Source of the DNA: Actinomycetota bacterium
Lineage (GTDB): Bacteria > Actinomycetota > Acidimicrobiia > Acidimicrobiales > Ilumatobacteraceae
Assembly: GCA_009701105.1 (NCBI GenBank)
Contig: WLKU01000003.1
Span: 1-25,780, forward strand
Direction of reading: 5' to 3'
DNA: 25,780 nucleotides
The first letter of the stretch is position 1, and the number at the start of each line of letters is the position of its first letter. Shown piece by piece: positions 10,903 through 20,440 of the stretch. Both the position numbers and the translations under genes were made by a program. The notes beneath the pieces were generated by a model. It worked only from the letters and a program-made list of their open reading frames with translations, did no database searches and had not been told where the DNA came from.

Positions 10903-11865
10903 TTATTTCCAGGTGATGGTGTCGGCGAATACTCGTGTGAGTGGTTGCTGTACGTCAACAATGTCGTTGACTGTCGGGCAAGTTGCACCATCTTGGATAA
11001 ACAAAATTGTTGAGTGCATATGTGGTGGTTCAAGCATCGCGAGGCGTTGTTTTGCGAAATGAAACGGGCTGAGATCACCCGCGTTTGCAACAACACCGTG
11101 GCTTGATCCACAACCAACTACCACAAGTGAACCGCTGCCAGTAATTGGTGTATTGCGATAGCCCGCTGTTCCGCCATTGACACGACTCACATCCAACACG
11201 TCGGTGCCGAGTGTGAGCATCGACTTGTCACCAAGCCACAAAGAAGTGCCAGAGCGGGCGATGATTTTTCGTTTTTGATTCGCAGTGCGCAATGCGTTGA
11301 GTGAATCAGCATCGACATGGCTGACGTACATTGGCAGATTGTTTGGCACAACGCTCAGCCATTGTGCGATCTCTTGCATGTGATCAGCAGCCGTGCCATC
11401 GAGTGGTGGGTGCACCGACCAACCATGCTGCTCAAAGCCAGCAGCGTTCACGGCACTCACGACCGAGGCGACACCGGAAGCACCAGCCACACCAAAACGT
11501 TGCACACTCGATCGGAGTTTGATGATCACGCGACCAGTCCAACCATGCGACACAAGTGTGTTGACATGTTGCACTGACCCAACAACGAGCACTGCATTGC
11601 GCGGCAGCGAAGTGGGCAACTCATCACCAACAGGCGTGAGCACGATTGGCGTGTGCGATGCAGGAATGTCGTGGGCCTCAAAGACTGTGCCAACCGCAAT
11701 TTCGGTAGCGAATTGTGTTGCTTGTTCGATCAACAGCGGTCGGCCAAAGCCATAACCGTTGCCTTTGACTACGGGCACAAGGAGTTGGTTATTCCCAAGC
11801 AGTTCTGCCTGGGCGTGCACATGGTCGAGCCAGGCTTGGCGGTTGACTGTCAGGCGCAAAGTCAT
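10903..11865 (-). CDS. Divergent, short alanine-racemase-like PLP protein
   Basis: The 320-residue protein carries the fold-type III PLP signature 'VVKGNGYGFG' with the Schiff-base lysine K34, as in alanine racemase N-terminal domains. Other landmarks are altered: 'KLRSSVQRFGV' stands where classical enzymes have the conserved D-T-G-M-R stretch, and 'ARSGTSLWLGD' replaces 'RPGIALYG'. The protein is some 50 residues shorter than usual alanine racemases, and the C-terminal tyrosine-bearing active-site motif is not recognisable. It may act on another amino acid or have lost racemase activity. It starts a unit with the DUF418 gene and ung. A TACCGT box 8 bases before the ATG suggests a leaderless transcript. 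Confidence 0.75.
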   Translation of the reverse strand: MTLRLTVNRQAWLDHVHAQAELLGNNQLLVPVVKGNGYGFGRPLLIEQATQFATEIAVGTVFEAHDIPASHTPIVLTPVGDELPTSLPRNAVLVVGSVQHVNTLVSHGWTGRVIIKLRSSVQRFGVAGASGVASVVSAVNAAGFEQHGWSVHPPLDGTAADHMQEIAQWLSVVPNNLPMYVSHVDADSLNALRTANQKRKIIARSGTSLWLGDKSMLTLGTDVLDVSRVNGGTAGYRNTPITGSGSLVVVGCGSSHGVVANAGDLSPFHFAKQRLAMLEPPHMHSTILFIQDGATCPTVNDIVDVQQPLTRVFADTITWK

Positions 11866-11948: not shown

Positions 11949-12464
11949 ATGGTCAAACTCTTCAGTTTCCCCAACCCAGTCAACGAAACATCAGCCCGCA
12001 TTGTTGCTGGTGGTGCTGCTCTCATGGGAACACTGTTTGCCGCAACTGGAAGTGGCTGGGTCTTAGCGGTGTTGACCTATGGCTTTATTGCGCGAGTGCT
12101 CACTGGCCCAACATTGAGCCCGCTCGGTCGACTCTCGACACAAGTGCTCACACCGTTACTCGCACCGTTGATGGAAAGTGAACATCGTATGGTGCCTGGT
12201 CCACCAAAAAGATTTGCCCAAGGTGTTGGCGCAACATTCGGCATTGTTGCAAGCGCACTGTTCGTGAGTGGAGCAGTAACCGAAGCTCGATTTGTAATTG
12301 CCGCACTCGTTGGTGCCGCATTTCTTGAATCAGCATTTGCCGTCTGCCTCGGCTGCATCATGTTTGGATGGCTGATGAAGGCTGGAGTAATTCCTGAAGA
12401 AGTTTGCGAAGAGTGCAATAACTTCAGTTCGCGTTCTTTGGCCACGACGTCAGGTCAGGCTTAA
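11949..12464 (+). CDS. DUF4395 family membrane protein
   Basis: The 171-residue protein matches the DUF4395 family in its landmarks: 'FPNPVNETSARIVAGG' at the N-terminus, 'SPLGRLSTQ', 'PKRFAQGVG' and 'ESAFAVCLGCIMFG' towards the C-terminus, with four membrane segments. The family is often found in actinobacteria beside thiol-redox or sulfurtransferase genes, but no biochemical role is established to my knowledge. The conserved cysteine pair CLGC and the C-terminal CEEC could be redox active or bind metal; this is a guess. It is a single-gene unit. Its 3' end overlaps the 3' end of mftF on the other strand by 41 bases. Confidence 0.87.
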   Translation: MVKLFSFPNPVNETSARIVAGGAALMGTLFAATGSGWVLAVLTYGFIARVLTGPTLSPLGRLSTQVLTPLLAPLMESEHRMVPGPPKRFAQGVGATFGIVASALFVSGAVTEARFVIAALVGAAFLESAFAVCLGCIMFGWLMKAGVIPEEVCEECNNFSSRSLATTSGQA

Positions 12465-13839
12465 GCGCGTCGAAGTTTTGTTCTCGGACAACACCCTTCC
12501 AAACACCAACTCCGTACGAGGCGTCGTCAAGCACGCGTAATGCAGTAAATCGGATCGGGTCAAGCTTTGGTCGCCCTTTCCACCATTCGTACATTGATGG
12601 AACTACTGCAGCAGTAATTAATACCCAGCGCATTCGTTTTGAAAACAGTGCGAGCACAACTGCAATTGGCCACCACACTCGCGTAATCGCTGAAGCAATA
12701 GTGCGACCAGCATGCAAATTGCCAAGGCCAGCCAAACGCGCAGACTCTTCAACGGCGTTTGGGATATCGCGCAATTTGCGAGCAAGTGCAGCGATTGTTC
12801 CTGCGCCGACTAATGCGCCAAAGATTGGGTAACCAAGCGCGATAAGTGCCCACATGCCAGCCGAATATCCGCTCACTCGCACAGGAGCAAGTGCGCCTTT
12901 GTGTCTTTGCGCAAGCGCAGCGGCCGATGTGCCGTAGCCAATTCTCTGCGCAACAAAATCGCTGACAGTTGATCGCGGTAGGTGAGTGCATACCGCGGTT
13001 GGTTGGTAACGACAGCGCCAACCGGCTGTGTCAAGACGCCACAGTGCATCTACGTCTTCACCAACTTGCAGTGATTCATCGAAGCCATGGATCTGACGCA
13101 TTGCCTCGGTGCGACACAACCACATTGCCGAGGGTGTGTAACTAATGCGCGTGCCTTTACGAATTCGACCCTCAAGTGGACCAAGGTCGAGCGGTGATCT
13201 CAACGCTTCATAAGCAGCTAATGCACCTTCGGTAGATGCACTGACAATGCGCGGTGCAACAAGCCCTACGCGCTCGTCGGCAAAATACGAAAGCAGCTCA
13301 ATCAACGTGTTGTTTTCAAGTGTCACGTCTACATCGATAAACGCAACAAATGGTGTGGTCACAAATTGCAATCCGTGGTTACGTGCAGCGCCTGGACCCT
13401 TATTGTGGTCGAGCGAAACAACTCGTGCACCCGCAATGTTGGAAATTGCGTGCGGTGATGCGTCGTTTACAACGATAATGGTGGCTGCAGTTGTAGAGAG
13501 CTTTGTCAGTTTGTCAACAAGAGTGTGGAGCAAGCGCGCGTCTTTGGCATTACGCACATGCGCAGGAATCACAATGCTCACATCGGCAAGCGTGAAAGGT
13601 TGCTCGCTGCCAACGATGTGTGTCGGATGAATCGCGCCGGCATCGAGCAGACGGTTCGTGAGTGCTTCGTGACCTGCGGGAAGTGGTAATCCGATTTCGA
13701 GTAGCTCTGCTACGCGACGACCCTCTTCGCTCAGAGTAAACATCTTGAGTGGAGAGCCTGCGAACACCATGAGACCGCGCACAGGACGGCGCCAAGACGG
13801 ATCAACAATGAAGTGTGGCTGATTGATGAGGTCGGTCAT
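12424..13839 (-). CDS. mftF: Mycofactocin glycosyltransferase MftF
   Basis: The 471-residue GT2-family protein has an N-terminal MftF-type region, then 'VSIVIPAHVRN' (87-97), 'IIVVNDASP', 'GPGAARNHGL', the metal-binding D169-V-D171 and 'GEDVDALWRL' with E261-D262 as likely catalytic residues. Hydrophobic segments in the C-terminal third would attach it to the membrane. In mycobacteria MftF adds a glucan chain to the mycofactocin aglycone. It is the last gene of the mft operon, 21 bases after mftE, with no clear ribosome-binding site. Its 3' end overlaps DUF4395 tail to tail. Operon position makes MftF much likelier than a general glycosyltransferase. Confidence 0.92.
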   Translation of the reverse strand: MTDLINQPHFIVDPSWRRPVRGLMVFAGSPLKMFTLSEEGRRVAELLEIGLPLPAGHEALTNRLLDAGAIHPTHIVGSEQPFTLADVSIVIPAHVRNAKDARLLHTLVDKLTKLSTTAATIIVVNDASPHAISNIAGARVVSLDHNKGPGAARNHGLQFVTTPFVAFIDVDVTLENNTLIELLSYFADERVGLVAPRIVSASTEGALAAYEALRSPLDLGPLEGRIRKGTRISYTPSAMWLCRTEAMRQIHGFDESLQVGEDVDALWRLDTAGWRCRYQPTAVCTHLPRSTVSDFVAQRIGYGTSAAALAQRHKGALAPVRVSGYSAGMWALIALGYPIFGALVGAGTIAALARKLRDIPNAVEESARLAGLGNLHAGRTIASAITRVWWPIAVVLALFSKRMRWVLITAAVVPSMYEWWKGRPKLDPIRFTALRVLDDASYGVGVWKGVVREQNFDALKPDLTSWPKNAN

Positions 13840-13860
13840 GATTATGAGTTATTTGGTTCG

Positions 13861-14538
13861 CTAGTTCATGTGTTCGTTTATAAAGGTAACGAGATCGTGG
13901 GTTAATTGCGAGAGCAAGTTGTGACCGTGTTCGGATGTCGCAGTAACTGGGTCGCCCAACACGCCGTTGGTCGAAACTGCGCGTACTCCGCCACTACGTA
14001 ACTGCGCAGAAATCTCGCTGATCGGCTTGGTTGATCCAGTCTCGGCCTTTGCCATGTTGACTTGCTCTGGGTTGATTACAAGCATCATCGACGTCTCGCT
14101 CGCACCCGCGTGAGCGTCACCGTGCTCGATGCGCGGCCACCACGCAGCAACATTTCGTTGCTCATTGGCAAGTATGCGAGTCGCGGCAGCGACGGCATCG
14201 GCATTGCCACCATGACCATTTACGAATACCACGCCATTGCACCAATCGGCTGAGCGAACGATCTCAACCAAGACTTGAGTGAGAGCTTCGGTTCCGATCG
14301 AAAGTGTGCCGGGAAAGCCAGCATGCTCGCCACTTGCAGAAATAGTCAGACTGGGAGCGATCAGAACGCGGTTGTCATGTCGTGCTGCCCGCACACACAA
14401 GTACTGAGCAATTTGAGTGTCGGTGTCAAGCGGCAAGTGTGGGCCGTGTTGTTCACACGATCCGATTGGCAATAACAAAATGATTGATTGTCGACTTGCG
14501 ACCTCTGGCCAAGTGTTGGTTGCGATGTTGTTGGCCAC
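13861..14538 (-). CDS. mftE: Mycofactocin precursor peptide peptidase MftE
   Basis: This 225-residue creatininase-family metallopeptidase has 'LLPIGSCEQHGPHLPLDTDT' (residues 21-40, with E28, H30 and D39 as metal ligands), 'FVNGHGGNADAV' and 'HAGASETSMM' (acidic ligand in GASE). In the mycofactocin pathway MftE cleaves the MftC-modified MftA to release the C-terminal Val-Tyr-derived AHDP. The start is a GTG at 14538, 8 bases after the dedA-like gene. Members of the family include creatininase itself, but the flanking mft genes settle the assignment. Confidence 0.93.
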   Translation of the reverse strand: MANNIATNTWPEVASRQSIILLLPIGSCEQHGPHLPLDTDTQIAQYLCVRAARHDNRVLIAPSLTISASGEHAGFPGTLSIGTEALTQVLVEIVRSADWCNGVVFVNGHGGNADAVAAATRILANEQRNVAAWWPRIEHGDAHAGASETSMMLVINPEQVNMAKAETGSTKPISEISAQLRSGGVRAVSTNGVLGDPVTATSEHGHNLLSQLTHDLVTFINEHMN

Positions 14539-14546
14539 GCCAAAGA

Positions 14547-15155
14547 CTAAGCGCGAAGGCGTTTGCGCACAAAGCGCACTACTTCAATCAGCACAGTTGC
14601 GCTTAATGCTCCACCGAATGCAACCAGAAATGCTTTGGTGTGGTCTTCCTGGAAAGTTTTGCCACCGATATAGCCAAGTAGCGACGCATAGAGCGCCCAA
14701 ATTGACGCAGCAGCGACTATCCATCCAACGAACCAGCGATGATCGCGACGTGTGATGCCACAAGTCAGTGTTAATAGGGTGCGACCACCCGGTATGAATC
14801 GCGCTGTGATGAGGAGCAAACCGCCGCGTTGTTCAATCTGGTGAATTACCTTTTCTAATCTTTGTCGGCTTTTCTCGTTGCGTGTATATCGCTTGAGGAT
14901 CCGTTCGCTTGCTTGGCGGCCAATCAGGTACGACATGTTGTCGCCTATGAATGCGCCTGCTGCGGCTACCAGTATCACGATCGCTATTGACAATTTTCCA
15001 GTACCCGCGCTAACGCCACCCACGATGACAAGTGTTTCGCTTGGCACGATTGGTATCACTGAGTCGGCAACTGCGATCGTAAAGATGATCAGGTAAAACC
15101 AAGGCGACGATGAAAAGTGCTCAAGCCACGCAAAAAAGTCGTTGAGCAGGTTCAT
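14547..15155 (-). CDS. DedA-family integral membrane protein in the mft operon
   Basis: The 202-residue protein has several membrane segments and the DedA (SNARE-associated) landmarks: 'VADSVIPIVPSETLVIVGG' near residues 29-47, 'GAFIGDNMSYLIGR' and 'ARFIPGGRTLLTLTCG'. DedA-family proteins include transporters that return undecaprenyl phosphate or phospholipids across the membrane. It lies between plsY and mftE, 18 and 8 bases from its neighbours, on the same strand, so it is almost certainly co-transcribed with the mft genes. A link to the lipid or glycan side of mycofactocin is possible but is only inferred from position. Confidence 0.9.
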   Translation of the reverse strand: MNLLNDFFAWLEHFSSSPWFYLIIFTIAVADSVIPIVPSETLVIVGGVSAGTGKLSIAIVILVAAAGAFIGDNMSYLIGRQASERILKRYTRNEKSRQRLEKVIHQIEQRGGLLLITARFIPGGRTLLTLTCGITRRDHRWFVGWIVAAASIWALYASLLGYIGGKTFQEDHTKAFLVAFGGALSATVLIEVVRFVRKRLRA

Positions 15156-15173
15156 TACATTTCAACCAAAACG

Positions 15174-15788
15174 TTAAGCGTTTTCCTCATGAGACTTCAG
15201 GCGACGAATATTTGGCAAGTGCCGAATAATGATCATGCCAACGAGCCCAAGTGCTGCAGCCAACTCCCACATGTTGTCGTTGCGCCAAATAGCGACATAC
15301 ACCGGAACAGCAATTGTGATGACAAGCGAAGCGACCGATGACTTACCCGTTGTCTTGCGGAGTACGAACCAGGATGTGCACAAGATCAAACTCATGACGG
15401 GGTACAGCACGTACATCACACCGCCGCCAGTGGCGACACCTTTGCCGCCGACAAACTTGCGTGTTACAGGAAATGTGTGCCCAATTACTGCGGCATAACC
15501 GCAGGCGTACGCAAGATACGAGACGCGAAGCGGATCTGGTTGTGTGTTCATCACAAACCAGGCAATTGCAACCGACGCAGAACCTTTGAGCACGTCGGCC
15601 AAAAACACAACAAGGCCGTATTTCCAACCGAGCAAGCGCACGACGTTGGATGTTCCTGGATTACCCGAACCCGCTGCAGTTACATCGACACCGCCGCGCT
15701 TGGCAACAATGAGTGCACTTGGAAACGTGCCAAGAAAATACGAAACAATGATGGCACTGATAATCAGCAGTGGATTGACGTCGTTCAT
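15174..15788 (-). CDS. plsY: PlsY-family glycerol-3-phosphate acyltransferase in the mft operon
   Basis: The 204-residue membrane protein carries PlsY motifs: 'GSGNPGTSNVVR' (40-51), 'ADVLKGS' (64-70) and 'GHTFPVTRKFVGGKGVATGGG' (103-123). PlsY transfers an acyl group from acyl phosphate to glycerol 3-phosphate, the first step of phospholipid synthesis. The first motif reads NPGTSN where most enzymes have N-x-GATN, so this may be a divergent paralogue rather than the main housekeeping enzyme. Its ATG overlaps the mftC stop (ATGA), which ties its translation to mftC. It occupies the space where mftD usually lies. Confidence 0.88.
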   Translation of the reverse strand: MNDVNPLLIISAIIVSYFLGTFPSALIVAKRGGVDVTAAGSGNPGTSNVVRLLGWKYGLVVFLADVLKGSASVAIAWFVMNTQPDPLRVSYLAYACGYAAVIGHTFPVTRKFVGGKGVATGGGVMYVLYPVMSLILCTSWFVLRKTTGKSSVASLVITIAVPVYVAIWRNDNMWELAAALGLVGMIIIRHLPNIRRLKSHEENA

Positions 15789-16942
15789 ACCCGTTCCATT
15801 CGTTGCACTGCTTCTTTGGATGAAGCCAGCCGCGGAGTATTGATCTTTACAGGTCTTGAGTGGTCCATTGACGGCTTGGGGATGAGGTTGATAGATGCTG
15901 CCTTGACGAGTTCTTCACCGTGGCCCGTGACGCACTCTGGGTCTGGTCCATCTAGTGGTATACCGGTAAAGAACTTGGCGGCCATGCATCCGCCTTGGCA
16001 GGCGTCGTAACTGCCACAAGCCGAACACGCGCCTTCGGATTCTGGCTCGCGTAGCGACAAGAAGAGGTCGCTTTCTTTCCACACCTTGGTGAAGCCTCCA
16101 TCGTCCAAGAGTGAGCCAGCTTTGAATTGATCATGAATAACAAACGGGCACGCATACACATCGCCGATCGGGTCGATCAAACACACCACACGACCAGCAC
16201 CGCACAGGTTGAGACCGGGGAGCGATTCGCCGAATGCGTTTAAGTGGAAAAACGAATCACCTGTGAGCACGTTCTCGCCATGCTTCATCAACCAGTCATA
16301 AATCTGACGCTGTTGTTGTTGTGTTGGGTGCAACTCGTCCCACGTGTCGGCACCTCTACCCGATGGTCGTAGACGGGTGATGCGCAATTGCGCGCCGTAT
16401 GAATCGGCAAGTGCCTTGAATGCATCGAGTTGATCGACGTTGTGTCGTGTCACAACAACAGAAATTTTGAATTGTCCAAAGTTGGCTTCGCGTAAATGGT
16501 TCATTGCTGCAATTGCTGTTGCGTAAGAGCCCTTGCCGCGCACAGCATCGTTGGTTGCAGCATCCACGCCGTCGAGGCTGATTTGAATGTCGAGGTAATT
16601 CATCGCGGCCAAACGACGTGCATTTTCTGCTGTGATGTATGTGCCGTTCGTCGAAAACTTGACGCCAATGTCATTGGATTCTGCATGTTCGAGAATCTCA
16701 AAAAAATCTTTGCGTATCATCGGCTCGCCACCACCGATATTGATGTAGAACACTTGCAAGTCGCGCAATTCGTCAAGCACGGCTTTTGCTTGATCGGTTG
16801 AAAGTTCGCGTGGGTCTCTAGTACCGCTACTCGACAAACAGTGCACGCACTGCAGGTTGCAGGCGTAGGTGATTTCCCAGGTCAAGCAAATTGGTGCATC
16901 AAGACCAGCCTTGAGTTGTGTCGCGAGCGTTTTACCTGACAC
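15785..16942 (-). CDS. mftC: Mycofactocin radical SAM maturase MftC
   Basis: The 385-residue protein has the radical SAM cysteine motif C28-N-L-Q-C32-V-H-C35 for the catalytic [4Fe-4S] cluster, 'GGGEP' for SAM binding, and a C-terminal SPASM region rich in cysteines ('LNLCGAGRVVCLIDPIGDVYACPF', split here: 'LCGAGRVVC', 'YACPF', 'ACSACGSYDACQGGC'). MftC oxidatively decarboxylates the C-terminal tyrosine of MftA and then cross-links it to the adjacent valine. The start is a GTG at 16942 inside the end of mftB (11-base overlap), and mftA and mftB are directly upstream. Confidence 0.96.
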   Translation of the reverse strand: MSGKTLATQLKAGLDAPICLTWEITYACNLQCVHCLSSSGTRDPRELSTDQAKAVLDELRDLQVFYINIGGGEPMIRKDFFEILEHAESNDIGVKFSTNGTYITAENARRLAAMNYLDIQISLDGVDAATNDAVRGKGSYATAIAAMNHLREANFGQFKISVVVTRHNVDQLDAFKALADSYGAQLRITRLRPSGRGADTWDELHPTQQQQRQIYDWLMKHGENVLTGDSFFHLNAFGESLPGLNLCGAGRVVCLIDPIGDVYACPFVIHDQFKAGSLLDDGGFTKVWKESDLFLSLREPESEGACSACGSYDACQGGCMAAKFFTGIPLDGPDPECVTGHGEELVKAASINLIPKPSMDHSRPVKINTPRLASSKEAVQRMERV

Positions 16943-17198
16943 GAATGATGTCCGATGCTGCGAGTGAGTCGATGGCCTCTACAAAACTCGGCCACCGCGA
17001 TGGCTGAATGTCGTGCGCGCCGAGTGCGTCTTGCAGCGTTGCGTAGTCGGCAACGTCGCGCACCACAGCAACAACGTCTGGGTGTTTTAAAAAAACAAGC
17101 TTGCGGTTGCCGTAGTGATAGGCAAGCGCACCAAATGATTCAGGGCGCAGTGCTACTTGCGGATTTAATTCGCATGCTGTTTCCAGCGTGATTGACAT
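16932..17198 (-). CDS. mftB: Mycofactocin peptide chaperone MftB
   Basis: The 88-residue protein is a PqqD-like peptide chaperone. 'NPQVALRPESFGALAYHYGNR' is split here as 'VALRPESFGALAYHYG' and 'KLVFLKHPDVVAVV'; both are MftB landmarks. MftB binds the MftA leader and presents it to MftC. The ATG at 17198 lies 25 bases after the mftA stop, and no Shine-Dalgarno sequence is seen. The 3' end overlaps mftC by 11 bases. Confidence 0.93.
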   Translation of the reverse strand: MSITLETACELNPQVALRPESFGALAYHYGNRKLVFLKHPDVVAVVRDVADYATLQDALGAHDIQPSRWPSFVEAIDSLAASDIIRVR

Positions 17199-17223
17199 GA
17201 TGTGGAGGACGAACTAGCGGTAC

Positions 17224-17358
17224 TTAGTAGACGCCGCACATGCCGTCAATCGAAATTTCTTCGACAAGCAGTTCGGTGGCATCGTGTTGAACAGCCGGTT
17301 TGGCTGAGTCGACATCTTGTGTGATTTCGCTTATTTGGGCTGTTGCTGTGGGTTCCAT
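17224..17358 (-). CDS. mftA: Mycofactocin precursor peptide MftA
   Basis: A 44-residue ORF ends with 'EEISIDGMCGVY', the nearly invariant C-terminus of MftA; the last two residues, Val-Tyr, become the mycofactocin core. The preceding 'TELLVEE' is the part of the leader recognised by MftB in relatives. The ATG at 17358 is the only ATG, GTG or TTG that opens a compact reading; upstream in-frame codons would run into the adh promoter region. The N-terminal leader is longer than the roughly 30-residue mycobacterial peptide. It begins the mft operon and is divergent from adh, 88 bases away. AGG lies close before the start. Confidence 0.95.
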   Translation of the reverse strand: MEPTATAQISEITQDVDSAKPAVQHDATELLVEEISIDGMCGVY

Positions 17359-17446: not shown

Positions 17447-18559
17447 GTGAAGACAAAAGCAGCAGTGTTGTGGGAATTGAATGCTCCGTGGAGCATTGAG
17501 GATATTGAATTGGATGCGCCAGGCCCAAACGAAGTGTTGGTGAAGTTGGCCGCTTCTGGTCTTTGTCACTCAGACGAGCATCTTGTTACCGGCGACTTGC
17601 CATTCGAGCTTCCGATCATTGGTGGTCACGAAGGTGCTGGCGTTGTGCAACAAGTCGGCGCGAATGTGAGTTGGCTTGCGCCTGGCGATCACGTCGTATT
17701 TGGTTTCATCCCATCGTGTGGTCGTTGTGTGAGTTGCTCGACTGGTCACCAAAACTTGTGTGACCTTGGTGCCTACATGGCAACTGGCAAGCAGATCAGC
17801 GATCAGACTTCGCGACATCATGCTGGCGGCAAAGACTTGGGTGTGATGTGTCTACTCGGAACATTTGCGCAACACACTGTGGTGCACGAAGCAAGTTGCA
17901 TCAAAATCGAACAAGATGTGCCGCTCGATCGCGCGTGCTTGCTCGGTTGCGGTGTTGTAACTGGCTGGGGTTCGAGCGTGTATGCAGCCGAAGTGAAGCC
18001 TGGCGACACTGTTGTAGTCGTCGGTGTCGGTGGCATTGGCGCAAATGCAATCCAAGGTGCACGCATTGCTGGTGCAAAACAAATCATTGCGATTGACCCA
18101 ATCGAGTTTAAGCGTGAGAAAGCAATGGAGTTTGGTGCGACACATAGCGCCAACTCGATGGCCGAAGCAGTCCCACTGTTGCAAGAACTCACTCGTGGCA
18201 CCATGGCCAACAAAGTGATCATGACGATGGGCGTCGGTAGTGGCGCAGTAATTCATGAAGCAATGGCACTGACTGCAAAGCGTGGTCGTGTTGTCGTAAC
18301 CAACATTCACCCCGCAATGGAGTTTGGTGCATCGGTAAGTTTGCTCGACATGACGTTGATGGAAAAGCAACTTGTTGGATCGCTCTTTGGCTCTGGAAAT
18401 CCACGCTCCGATATTCCAAAGTTGCTCGGCTTGTATCGCGAAGGTCAACTCGATCTCGACGGTTTGGTCACCCGCACTTACACGTTGAATGACATCAACG
18501 AGGGTTACCGCGCGATGCGTGACGGAGAAAATATCCGTGGCGTCATCAAATATGACTGA
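17447..18559 (+). CDS. Zinc alcohol dehydrogenase, NDMA-dependent (mycofactocin-associated) type
   Basis: The 370-residue protein is a medium-chain, zinc-dependent alcohol dehydrogenase. Catalytic zinc ligands are C40 ('GLCHSDEH'), H61 ('GGHEGAG') and C168 ('LLGCGVVTGWGS'); the structural zinc is held by C91, C94, C97 and C105. 'VGVGGIGAN' (192-200) and D217 bind NAD. The 'KTKAAVLWE' start and overall sequence resemble the NDMA-dependent nicotinoprotein group, in which NAD is tightly bound and electrons pass to mycofactocin. I chose the GTG at 17447 because AAGGGGG lies 5 bases upstream; a reading from 17300 would run through mftA. It is divergent from mftA and leads an operon with moxR and vwa. 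The alcohol substrate is unknown. Confidence 0.92.
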   Translation: MKTKAAVLWELNAPWSIEDIELDAPGPNEVLVKLAASGLCHSDEHLVTGDLPFELPIIGGHEGAGVVQQVGANVSWLAPGDHVVFGFIPSCGRCVSCSTGHQNLCDLGAYMATGKQISDQTSRHHAGGKDLGVMCLLGTFAQHTVVHEASCIKIEQDVPLDRACLLGCGVVTGWGSSVYAAEVKPGDTVVVVGVGGIGANAIQGARIAGAKQIIAIDPIEFKREKAMEFGATHSANSMAEAVPLLQELTRGTMANKVIMTMGVGSGAVIHEAMALTAKRGRVVVTNIHPAMEFGASVSLLDMTLMEKQLVGSLFGSGNPRSDIPKLLGLYREGQLDLDGLVTRTYTLNDINEGYRAMRDGENIRGVIKYD

Positions 18560-19511
18560 TCAGCAAACATCAAGCCAGATAATTCATGCAGTCGGCAACG
18601 ATGTTGTCGGGCGTCAGCGTGAAATTGAGTTGGTAGTTGCAGCACTTGTTGCTGGACGACATATGTTGCTTGAAGGACCTCCTGGCACGGGTAAAAGCAC
18701 GTTATTGCGTGCAGTTGCTCAAAGTATGTCGGTTGGGTTTTCGTTTGTTGAGGGCAACGCCGAGCTCACACCTGCACGACTGATTGGTCACTTTGACCCA
18801 GCTCGCGTCTTGACCGACGGCTACGCACCTGACGTCTTTGTTGATGGCCCACTCGTAACAGCATTACGTGAAGGTTCATTGTTGTATGTAGAAGAGATCA
18901 ACCGAATTCCGGAAGAGACGCTCAACGTGTTGATCACGGTGATGAGCGAAGGCGAGATAACTGTGCCGCGACTGGGCAAAGTGGTCGGCACCGATGGATT
19001 TCGACTGGTTGCAGCAATGAACCCGTTTGATGCCGTGGGTACGGCGCGCATTTCAAGCGCTGTGTATGACCGAGTGTGTCGTGTTGCAATGACATATCAG
19101 TCTTCTCAAGACGAGTGTTCAATTGTTGATCGCAATCTCAAGGCAAATAACCAAAAAAATAGCGCTGGTGTGCAACCAGACGCTGCGTGGGTAACAAAAG
19201 TTGTTGAAGTTGTTCGTCGCACACGCAGTCATCCTGATTTGCGAGTTGGGTCATCGGTGCGTGGGGCGATTGATACTGCTTTGGTGGCATCGAGTTTGGC
19301 CGAAGTGCGCTCGTCGAAAAATATTTCTGCATCAATTGGGCTCGATAGTGCACTAGTTGCCATCAGTGGCAGAGTGCGTATTCGAGAAGGAAGTGTGCGT
19401 AATGCAGAAGAAGTTGTTGCCGAAATTTGGAATGACGTTTTTGGTTTGAGCGCCGGAGACGAGTCAGCGGGAAAAGCTGGCGCCCCGACTGGGGCCACGA
19501 CCTCGAACTAG
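18552..19511 (+). CDS. MoxR-type AAA+ ATPase
   Basis: The 319-residue protein has Walker A 'GPPGTGKST' (42-50), the MoxR-type 'EGNAELTPARLIGHFD', Walker B 'LLYVEEINR' (110-118), sensor 1 'AAMNPFD' with N157, and arginines near 166-174 as finger candidates. MoxR ATPases work with a VWA partner to mature or activate other proteins, often metalloenzymes. The ATG at 18552 lies inside the last codons of adh (8-base overlap), so the two are co-translated. The last 22 residues after 'EIWNDVF' are rich in Gly, Ala, Thr and Ser and look unlike the domain; see the note on the T5 run at 19438, which may have altered the 3' end. Confidence 0.9.
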   Translation: MTDQQTSSQIIHAVGNDVVGRQREIELVVAALVAGRHMLLEGPPGTGKSTLLRAVAQSMSVGFSFVEGNAELTPARLIGHFDPARVLTDGYAPDVFVDGPLVTALREGSLLYVEEINRIPEETLNVLITVMSEGEITVPRLGKVVGTDGFRLVAAMNPFDAVGTARISSAVYDRVCRVAMTYQSSQDECSIVDRNLKANNQKNSAGVQPDAAWVTKVVEVVRRTRSHPDLRVGSSVRGAIDTALVASSLAEVRSSKNISASIGLDSALVAISGRVRIREGSVRNAEEVVAEIWNDVFGLSAGDESAGKAGAPTGATTSN

Positions 19512-19594
19512 CAAATCCGGCAGTTAAAGAGGGCGCGCTCGCCGAGCAAGCAGAGAGTCAAGCAAATAAGAAAACTGTTTCGCGAAGTGACTTG
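19432..19594 (+). other. Out-of-frame N-terminal extension of the VWA gene / probable one-base frameshift
   Basis: The VWA reading frame stays open upstream of 19592 to 19436 but has no ATG, GTG or TTG there. An ATG at 19432 lies in another frame and stops after five codons. If the T5 run at 19438-19442 were T4, that ATG would enter the VWA frame (MTFWFERRRR, then RPDWGHDLELANP) and the protein would gain about 54 residues, while moxR would end at a TGA a few codons after the run. This is either a one-base insertion, a sequence error or a slippage site. Confidence 0.5.
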
Positions 19595-20440
19595 GCGCGA
19601 CATGATCGATTTGAACAAATTTCTCCAGAAGTTGGCGAGCTCGATGAAGCCGCAGTAGACGAAGCTCTGAACGAATCTCCTGACGAAATACTCGGCATGC
19701 TCGCAGACTTGACCGCAGCAACCGACCCAAAGTTGCGTGAACTTGCACGCCGACTTGCAGGGCGAGTGATGCTCGAAATTGCGCGCACTGGCAAGCCGCG
19801 TCCGCGCGGTATTGGCAAGATGACGCTTGTCAATTATCAGCCAGATGCAGGTGATATCGACATCGACGCGAGTCTGGATGGACTAAACGAAATACGAGTG
19901 CATGGCGCAGTCGATGTAGATGCCCTCAAAGTGCGTGGCTGGACAAAACCGGGAACAGCATTCAGTTTGGTAGTTGACCGCAGTGGCTCGATGGGTGGGA
20001 AGCCACTTGCTAATTCGGCAATGGCTGCTGCGGCTATAGCCAGTCGCGAGCCAAGTGATTACAGCGTGCTGGTGTTTGGCAATGACGTTGTGGTTGCAAA
20101 GTCGCAGAATGTTTCGCGGTCAAGCGAACAGGTAGTCAACACGGTGCTTTCGTTGCGTGGGTTTGGCACAACCAACCTTGCTCAGGCATTGACCACTGCA
20201 AGCACTCAACTTGCACGTTCTCGGGCAGGTAGGCGAGTAACGATTTTGTTCTCCGATTGTCGCTCGACTGTTGAGGGCGATGCGGTGCTTGCGGGTAGTT
20301 CGCTTGAAGAGCTTGTGGTCATCGCACCAGTTGATGACGATGCAGAGGCTCGCGTATTTGCACAACAAGTAGGCGCAAGGTTTACAACAGTAAGTGGGCC
20401 AAGCGATGTGCCCGATGCATTACGACGAGTGCTCGACTAG
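19592..20440 (+). CDS. VWA domain protein, partner of the MoxR ATPase
   Basis: From the TTG at 19592 the protein has 282 residues: a helical, acidic N-terminal part and a von Willebrand factor A domain with an intact metal-ion-dependent adhesion site, D129-x-S131-x-S133 in 'VVDRSGSMGG', T193/T194 in 'RGFGTTNLA' and D222 in 'LFSDCRST'. VWA proteins of this kind link a MoxR-type ATPase to its client. It follows moxR directly in the adh operon. The TTG is the only usual start in this frame and lacks a ribosome-binding site; the true gene may begin at 19432 after a one-base correction. The stop overlaps that of the convergent LytR-CpsA-Psr gene within one CTAG. Confidence 0.85.
   Translation: MARHDRFEQISPEVGELDEAAVDEALNESPDEILGMLADLTAATDPKLRELARRLAGRVMLEIARTGKPRPRGIGKMTLVNYQPDAGDIDIDASLDGLNEIRVHGAVDVDALKVRGWTKPGTAFSLVVDRSGSMGGKPLANSAMAAAAIASREPSDYSVLVFGNDVVVAKSQNVSRSSEQVVNTVLSLRGFGTTNLAQALTTASTQLARSRAGRRVTILFSDCRSTVEGDAVLAGSSLEELVVIAPVDDDAEARVFAQQVGARFTTVSGPSDVPDALRRVLD

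Follow-up and report, generated by a model that had tools for sequence, protein, structure and literature searches.

Does a mycofactocin (mft) cluster that carries no mftD between mftC and mftE belong to an organism lacking the deaminating enzyme MftD, or does the gene lie elsewhere in the genome? The question is raised by the window, a stretch of 25,780 nucleotides (contig WLKU01000003.1 of assembly GCA_009701105.1) from an Actinomycetota bacterium, in which the interval between mftC and mftE holds plsY and dedA and no mftD. The arrangement is probably explained by an ordinary MftD-type pathway whose genes are divided over two loci, in a freshwater actinobacterium with a small genome, of the Ilumatobacteraceae kind and the acIV lineage.

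Organization of the cluster in the window and its relatives

The genes follow the order mftA-mftB-mftC-plsY-dedA-mftE-mftF on the minus strand, from 17358 down to 12424. All seven are confirmed by profile hidden Markov models (HMMs) at curated cut-offs, the five mft genes against NCBIfam and plsY and dedA against Pfam. The gaps read from the sequence are 25 nt for mftA-mftB, 18 nt for plsY-dedA, 8 nt for dedA-mftE and 21 nt for mftE-mftF. The gene order, the single strand, the gaps of at most 25 bases and the filling of the mftC-mftE slot, as described by an earlier sequence-only reading, are thus borne out; of its 'several overlaps' there are two, one of 11 nt between mftB and mftC and one through ATGA, by which plsY is coupled to mftC. 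An MftA with a CGVY end, together with MftB, MftC, MftE and MftF equivalogs all above their cut-offs, places the cluster in the mycofactocin system, the CGVY end being given as invariant in the text of Haft 2011 (PMC3023750). The cluster encodes no protein of TIGR03996 or TIGR03997, which NCBI names mycofactocin system FadH/OYE family oxidoreductases 1 and 2 (OYE_1 and OYE_2), and no electron transfer flavoprotein (ETF); hence it is not of the OYE type.

Scanning of genome contigs with the window MftC yielded 65 loci. The nearest, L001-L006, are freshwater metagenome-assembled genomes (MAGs) with 94-97% identity in MftC and 82.7-89.9% in DNA to the window; their titles read Acidimicrobiaceae, Acidimicrobium or Actinobacteria, and wider members are titled Ilumatobacteraceae. 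The 'family' denotes 221 genomes grouped with G002, its name being taken from the record titles, and the 'window clade' denotes 18 genomes (G001-G015, G028, G037, G039) whose MftC groups with that of the window. The order mftC-plsY-dedA-mftE-mftF is present in 17/17 window-clade loci whose assembly continues beyond mftC; the remaining one (L048) ends inside mftC. This order, and the linkage of plsY in much of the family, rule out a recent local insertion of plsY-dedA.

Location of mftD outside the cluster

The gene was sought in the window's relatives, the source genome of the window lying outside the search. MftD is encoded outside the mft cluster in 12 of the 18 window-clade genomes, which agrees with the earlier suggestion that mftD lies elsewhere; it is complete and above the cut-off in ten (G002, G003, G006, G007, G008, G012, G013, G014, G015 and G039) and truncated at a contig end in two (G010 and G011). 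In close relatives MftD reaches about 690 bits against a cut-off of 470.85, and MftE is found in all 18 genomes, so that a different end product for the window's lineage, the other option of the sequence-only reading, is not supported. The absence of OYE_1 and OYE_2 from the 18 genomes also supports the MftD type. Of two signs by which that reading would have reduced the case to a local rearrangement, mftD elsewhere is found, and absence of plsY-dedA from relatives is not, the pair being common there; the cluster is probably a rearranged locus of the MftD type.

In nine of the 12 genomes with mftD, mttB (trimethylamine-methyltransferase family, PF06253) lies directly before it, with a FAD/GcvT-domain gene upstream of mttB-mftD wherever the contig reaches that far. 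The separation extends to the wider family, in which mftC and mftD, when on a shared contig, are at least 14.6 kb apart in 10/10 genomes, including the chromosome-sized contigs G043, G194 and G068. As a separate observation, the placement of mftD behind mttB and FAD/GcvT-domain genes at L108:4291-9532 and at matching window-clade loci hints that the supply of mycofactocin may be connected with the breakdown of methylated amines. In the family genomes G068, G292, G528, G533 and G534, mftD and mftE are adjacent and away from mftC, and some genomes (G026 and G030; loci L030/L032 and L029) have a second mftC copy.

From the enzyme roles of the mycofactocin pathway, MftC of the window cluster would crosslink MftA, MftE would cut the product and MftF would glycosylate it. 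The deaminating MftD would be supplied from a second locus, in close relatives directly behind mttB, and the source genome of the window presumably has this gene. The sole glycerol-3-phosphate acyltransferase of its family in the cell, PlsY, would be encoded by a housekeeping gene taken up into the mftC transcription unit early in the history of the family, co-translated and probably also co-transcribed with mftC, and dedA would encode one of one to three VTT proteins.

Several observations weigh against this explanation. In profile and protein searches of the MAGs, six of the 18 window-clade genomes show no mftD, and the same six show no mttB; three of them (G001, G004 and G005) are among the six nearest relatives. 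Moreover, mftD of G006 adjoins no more than a short piece of mttB, the two genes are on separate contigs in G013, and in G011 one contig holds both at a distance of 12 kb. A real joint absence of mftD and mttB in part of the nearest relatives is therefore possible, and a lineage truly without MftD, in which the cofactor stops at 3-amino-5-[(4-hydroxyphenyl)methyl]-4,4-dimethyl-2-pyrrolidinone (AHDP) or its glycosides, or is processed by an unknown deaminase, would account for it. This is nevertheless unlikely. The six absences need not be real, because PlsX, taken as nearly indispensable, is missing from eight of the same 18 MAGs, a rate that the absence of mftD matches. Genomes without mftD also tend to be small, sister genomes at 87-90% identity have the gene, and neither OYE_1 nor OYE_2 was found in any of the 18.

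Apparent mutual exclusion of MftD and OYE oxidoreductases in the family

The 221 family genomes were searched for MftD at E 1e-102, OYE_1 at 1e-140 and OYE_2 at 1e-200, with the first 8 (MftD) or 5 (OYE) candidates scored per genome, so that fragments and outliers may be missed. MftC was found in 166 genomes, MftE in 145, MftD in 74, OYE_1 in 70 and OYE_2 in 61. The 166 genomes with mftC divide into 71 with MftD, 75 with OYE_1 or OYE_2, none with both and 20 with neither, and a piece of OYE_1 is visible at the mft locus in three of the last. The OYE genes of OYE-type clusters, often with an ETF chain, occupy the slot of mftD; in the clades concerned, an OYE_1 gene stands behind mftC or plsY, followed possibly by OYE_2, dedA, ETF beta, mftE and mftF (L174, L152). 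Lineages without mftD, as envisaged by the earlier reading, do occur among other family clades, which have OYE_1/OYE_2 in its stead. Several genomes of the G499-G507 group with mftC and OYE show no MftE at the threshold used.

The same split is observed beyond the family. In a separate data set of 12 mftC-bearing plasmid records, bacterial and archaeal, four carry MftD, eight carry OYE and none carries both, counted per record and not per genome. The eight comprise six with OYE_2, the match of Streptomyces sp. SAT1 being in two pieces, and two haloarchaeal OYE_2-like proteins of 625 and 615 bits (cut-off 793) that adjoin ETF genes. Six Competibacteraceae loci read mftC-OYE-OYE-etfB-mftE, and MftD was not found in the three Competibacteraceae genomes searched. 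For Thermomicrobium, L033 and L051, MftD is present and no OYE gene is at the locus.

A sampling effect, through MAG gaps, score thresholds or shared ancestry, could also produce such a split. The thresholds are strict and few candidates per genome were scored; furthermore, a tree of 131 family MftC proteins contains only nine changes between the MftD and OYE types, and the independent-pairs sign test on it is not significant (median p 0.125), with no pairs against and too few informative ones. However, simulations of independent evolution on the same tree gave zero co-occurrence in 0/3000 runs in each direction, and the plasmid records and Competibacteraceae repeat the pattern, which makes a sampling origin distinctly improbable. 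The NCBI text for TIGR03997 presumably names Rhodococcus among its holders. MftD is listed for Rhodococcus jostii in Haft 2011 (PMC3023750). Should both statements hold, there would be exceptions to the exclusion.

Possible function of the OYE oxidoreductases

MftD deaminates AHDP to the ketoamide premycofactocin, as described in PMC11778925. OYE_1 and OYE_2 resemble 2,4-dienoyl-CoA reductase, histamine dehydrogenase and trimethylamine dehydrogenase, and the iron-sulfur motif CxxCNQxC is present in 46 of 48 full-length OYE_1 and 16 of 21 OYE_2 proteins. Amine dehydrogenases of the trimethylamine/histamine dehydrogenase kind pass electrons to ETF. A corresponding set of genes is seen on two Streptomyces plasmids, in the order mftA-B-C-OYE1-OYE2-etfA-FixC-like-4Fe4S-etfB with mftE or mftF next.

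It is proposed from these sequence features that OYE_1/OYE_2 replace MftD, with one or both proteins taking over the step of MftD and perhaps that of MftG too. In its full form the proposal is tentative and could well prove wrong: there may be two routes, an aerobic one through MftD and one in which the 4Fe-4S proteins OYE_1/OYE_2 would deaminate AHDP without oxygen and feed electrons into the quinone pool through an ETF chain of their own; the two sets would be mutually exclusive across bacteria and archaea. OYE might also replace MftG, and the window's family would have undergone several swaps with plsY staying by mftC. An MftG query against the plasmids matched its source record only, a weak negative, MftG being diverse.

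Role of plsY and dedA

Exactly one PF02660 match is found in each of the 18 window-clade genomes, so that a second plsY, for which the sequence-only reading had proposed a search, was found in none of them. The window PlsY aligns with Aquifex PlsY 5xj5 at E 1.6e-23 with the motifs GSGNPG, GGKGVAT and RHLPNIRRL kept, and scores 135.7 bits with TIGR00023, narrowly under the equivalog cut-off of 137.2. The single copy and the signature motifs, which it shares with the PlsX/PlsY phospholipid pathway, favour an ordinary PlsY role; the difference lies in its position within a cofactor operon. PlsX, the acyl-phosphate supplier of PlsY, is found in 10 of the 18 window-clade genomes and in 20 of the 28 genomes searched overall. 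On these grounds the reading of plsY as pointing to a lipidated cofactor is not supported, and lipid modification of mycofactocin through PlsY is rejected as a first choice, window-clade genomes having only this PlsY.

The family has 131 loci with mftC, of which 122 extend for 900 bases or more beyond that gene. The next gene after mftC is plsY in 82/122, and in 109/131 plsY lies no more than 5.5 kb away on the same strand. By type, the direct position is held in 49/52 MftD genomes, 19/54 OYE genomes and 14/16 with neither call. A PlsY tree of 118 rows unites the window copy with 106 mft-linked ones in a single clade (Shimodaira-Hasegawa-like approximate likelihood ratio test, SH-aLRT, 95) that excludes all 11 unlinked copies used; the unlinked L228 and L231, whose matches were short or weak, were left out, and long-branch warnings apply to the tree. 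Linkage of plsY to mftC is seen in MftD genomes and also in many OYE genomes, so that an exchange of mftD for plsY is an improbable history, and plsY is most simply a housekeeping gene long settled by mftC, not a replacement of mftD. The absence of PlsX from eight window-clade genomes tells against this account, as does the mftC-plsY pair, whose retention is wider than a chance neighbourhood suggests, so that the two genes may be functionally linked.

One to three VTT proteins occur per genome (35 genomes searched). The genes dedA, mftE and mftF follow plsY only in some family clades, and in part of the family dedA is missing from the slot. DedA shares the VTT domain with the DedA/UptA undecaprenyl-phosphate transporters, but an assignment as UptA is rejected, its scores of 59.1 bits (cut-off 300) and 44.3 bits (cut-off 250) being far below equivalog level, and it has no sequence relative in PDB at E 0.1. 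A role of dedA in membrane-linked glycosylation may exist.

That PlsY and DedA act in mycofactocin itself, PlsY acylating the glycosylated cofactor or DedA flipping a lipid carrier for it, is very unlikely in spite of the coupling and frequent linkage of plsY to mftC and of the induction of M. smegmatis mft genes by long-chain acyl-CoA via MftR reported in PMC8728441, since the only PlsY of the window-clade genomes must do the general job, plsY is not beside mftC outside the family (Microthrixaceae L027, Thermomicrobium L032/L035, Competibacteraceae, and Streptomyces and Mycolicibacterium plasmids), the two genes are on different contigs in G022, G040 and G023, dedA is not constant in its slot, and no paper joining mycofactocin and PlsY was found in the literature searched.

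Neighbouring genes and comparison with known clusters

The features of the cluster and its surroundings are listed in Table 1. The alcohol dehydrogenase gene beside mftA is conserved in relatives, and in many of them the gene of the pyridoxal phosphate (PLP) protein is downstream of mftF, past a convergent DUF4395 gene. At 18489-20440 of the window, the gene after that of the alcohol dehydrogenase encodes a MoxR-type AAA ATPase, with one for a VWA-domain protein next, and a Haloterrigena mycofactocin cluster is likewise adjoined by an AAA ATPase and a VWA gene. The profile searches run on the window recognised neither mftR nor mftG.

Table 1. Position and profile-HMM support of the mycofactocin cluster genes and adjoining genes in the window
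Feature	Product	Length (aa)	Position	Strand	Support
mftA	mycofactocin precursor, C-terminus IDGMCGVY, ATG at 17358	44	17224..17358	-	TIGR03969 48.6 bits (cut-off 25); PF23709 46.2 bits
mftB	MftA-binding chaperone	88	16932..17198	-	TIGR03967 89.7 bits (cut-off 33)
mftC	radical SAM/SPASM maturase	385	15785..16942	-	TIGR03962 607.4 bits (cut-off 265)
plsY	acyl-phosphate:glycerol-3-phosphate acyltransferase	204	15174..15788	-	PF02660 147.7 bits (cut-off 24.1)
dedA	VTT-domain membrane protein	202	14547..15155	-	PF09335 85.6 bits (cut-off 33.9)
mftE	creatininase-family peptidase	225	13861..14538	-	TIGR03964 284 bits (cut-off 172)
mftF	glycosyltransferase	471	12424..13839	-	TIGR03965 372.1 bits (cut-off 280)
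alcohol dehydrogenase	N,N-dimethyl-4-nitrosoaniline (NDMA)-dependent, divergent, mycofactocin-tied nicotinoprotein family		17447..18559	+	TIGR03989 561.3 bits (cut-off 440)
PLP protein	alanine-racemase-like		10903..11865	-	PF01168 41.7 bits

With the canonical actinobacterial mftA-F cluster (plasmids of Streptomyces sp. NBC_00080 and M. chubuense), the window shares the CGVY MftA, the order of MftB, MftC, MftE and MftF on one strand and a nearby nicotinoprotein alcohol dehydrogenase; it differs in having plsY and dedA, and not mftD, between mftC and mftE. The OYE-type cluster (Streptomyces sp. NBC_00564, S. yangpuensis and loci L152, L165 and L174) likewise begins with mftABC and has mftE later, with plsY and dedA in family members, whereas its TIGR03996/TIGR03997 flavoproteins and ETF genes have no counterpart in the window.

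The association of OYE proteins with mycofactocin is already known from the NCBI model names. According to Haft 2011 (PMC3023750), most mycofactocin species have the MftD family but some do not, and OYE goes unmentioned in the available part of that text. No account of the MftD/OYE exclusion was found in a literature search that left most subscription papers outside, and nothing was found there that joins mycofactocin with electron transfer flavoprotein or with Ilumatobacter.

Significance for mycofactocin biosynthesis

A lack of mftD in the mftC-mftE interval does not imply a lack of MftD, as mftD is regularly elsewhere in this family. The window cluster matters chiefly for having brought the MftD/OYE split to light: OYE_1/OYE_2 are present, and a recognisable MftD is not, in about half of the mycofactocin genomes of the family. 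The MftD step is described as aerobic in PMC8406134, and about 25% of MftC genomes are without MftG, what serves them being left open in PMC11778925. If the OYE flavoproteins make premycofactocin, this would explain cofactor synthesis without MftD by an oxygen-independent route, and the OYE proteins may be what serves MftC genomes without MftG. Otherwise, organisms without MftD would have a different molecule as their cofactor.

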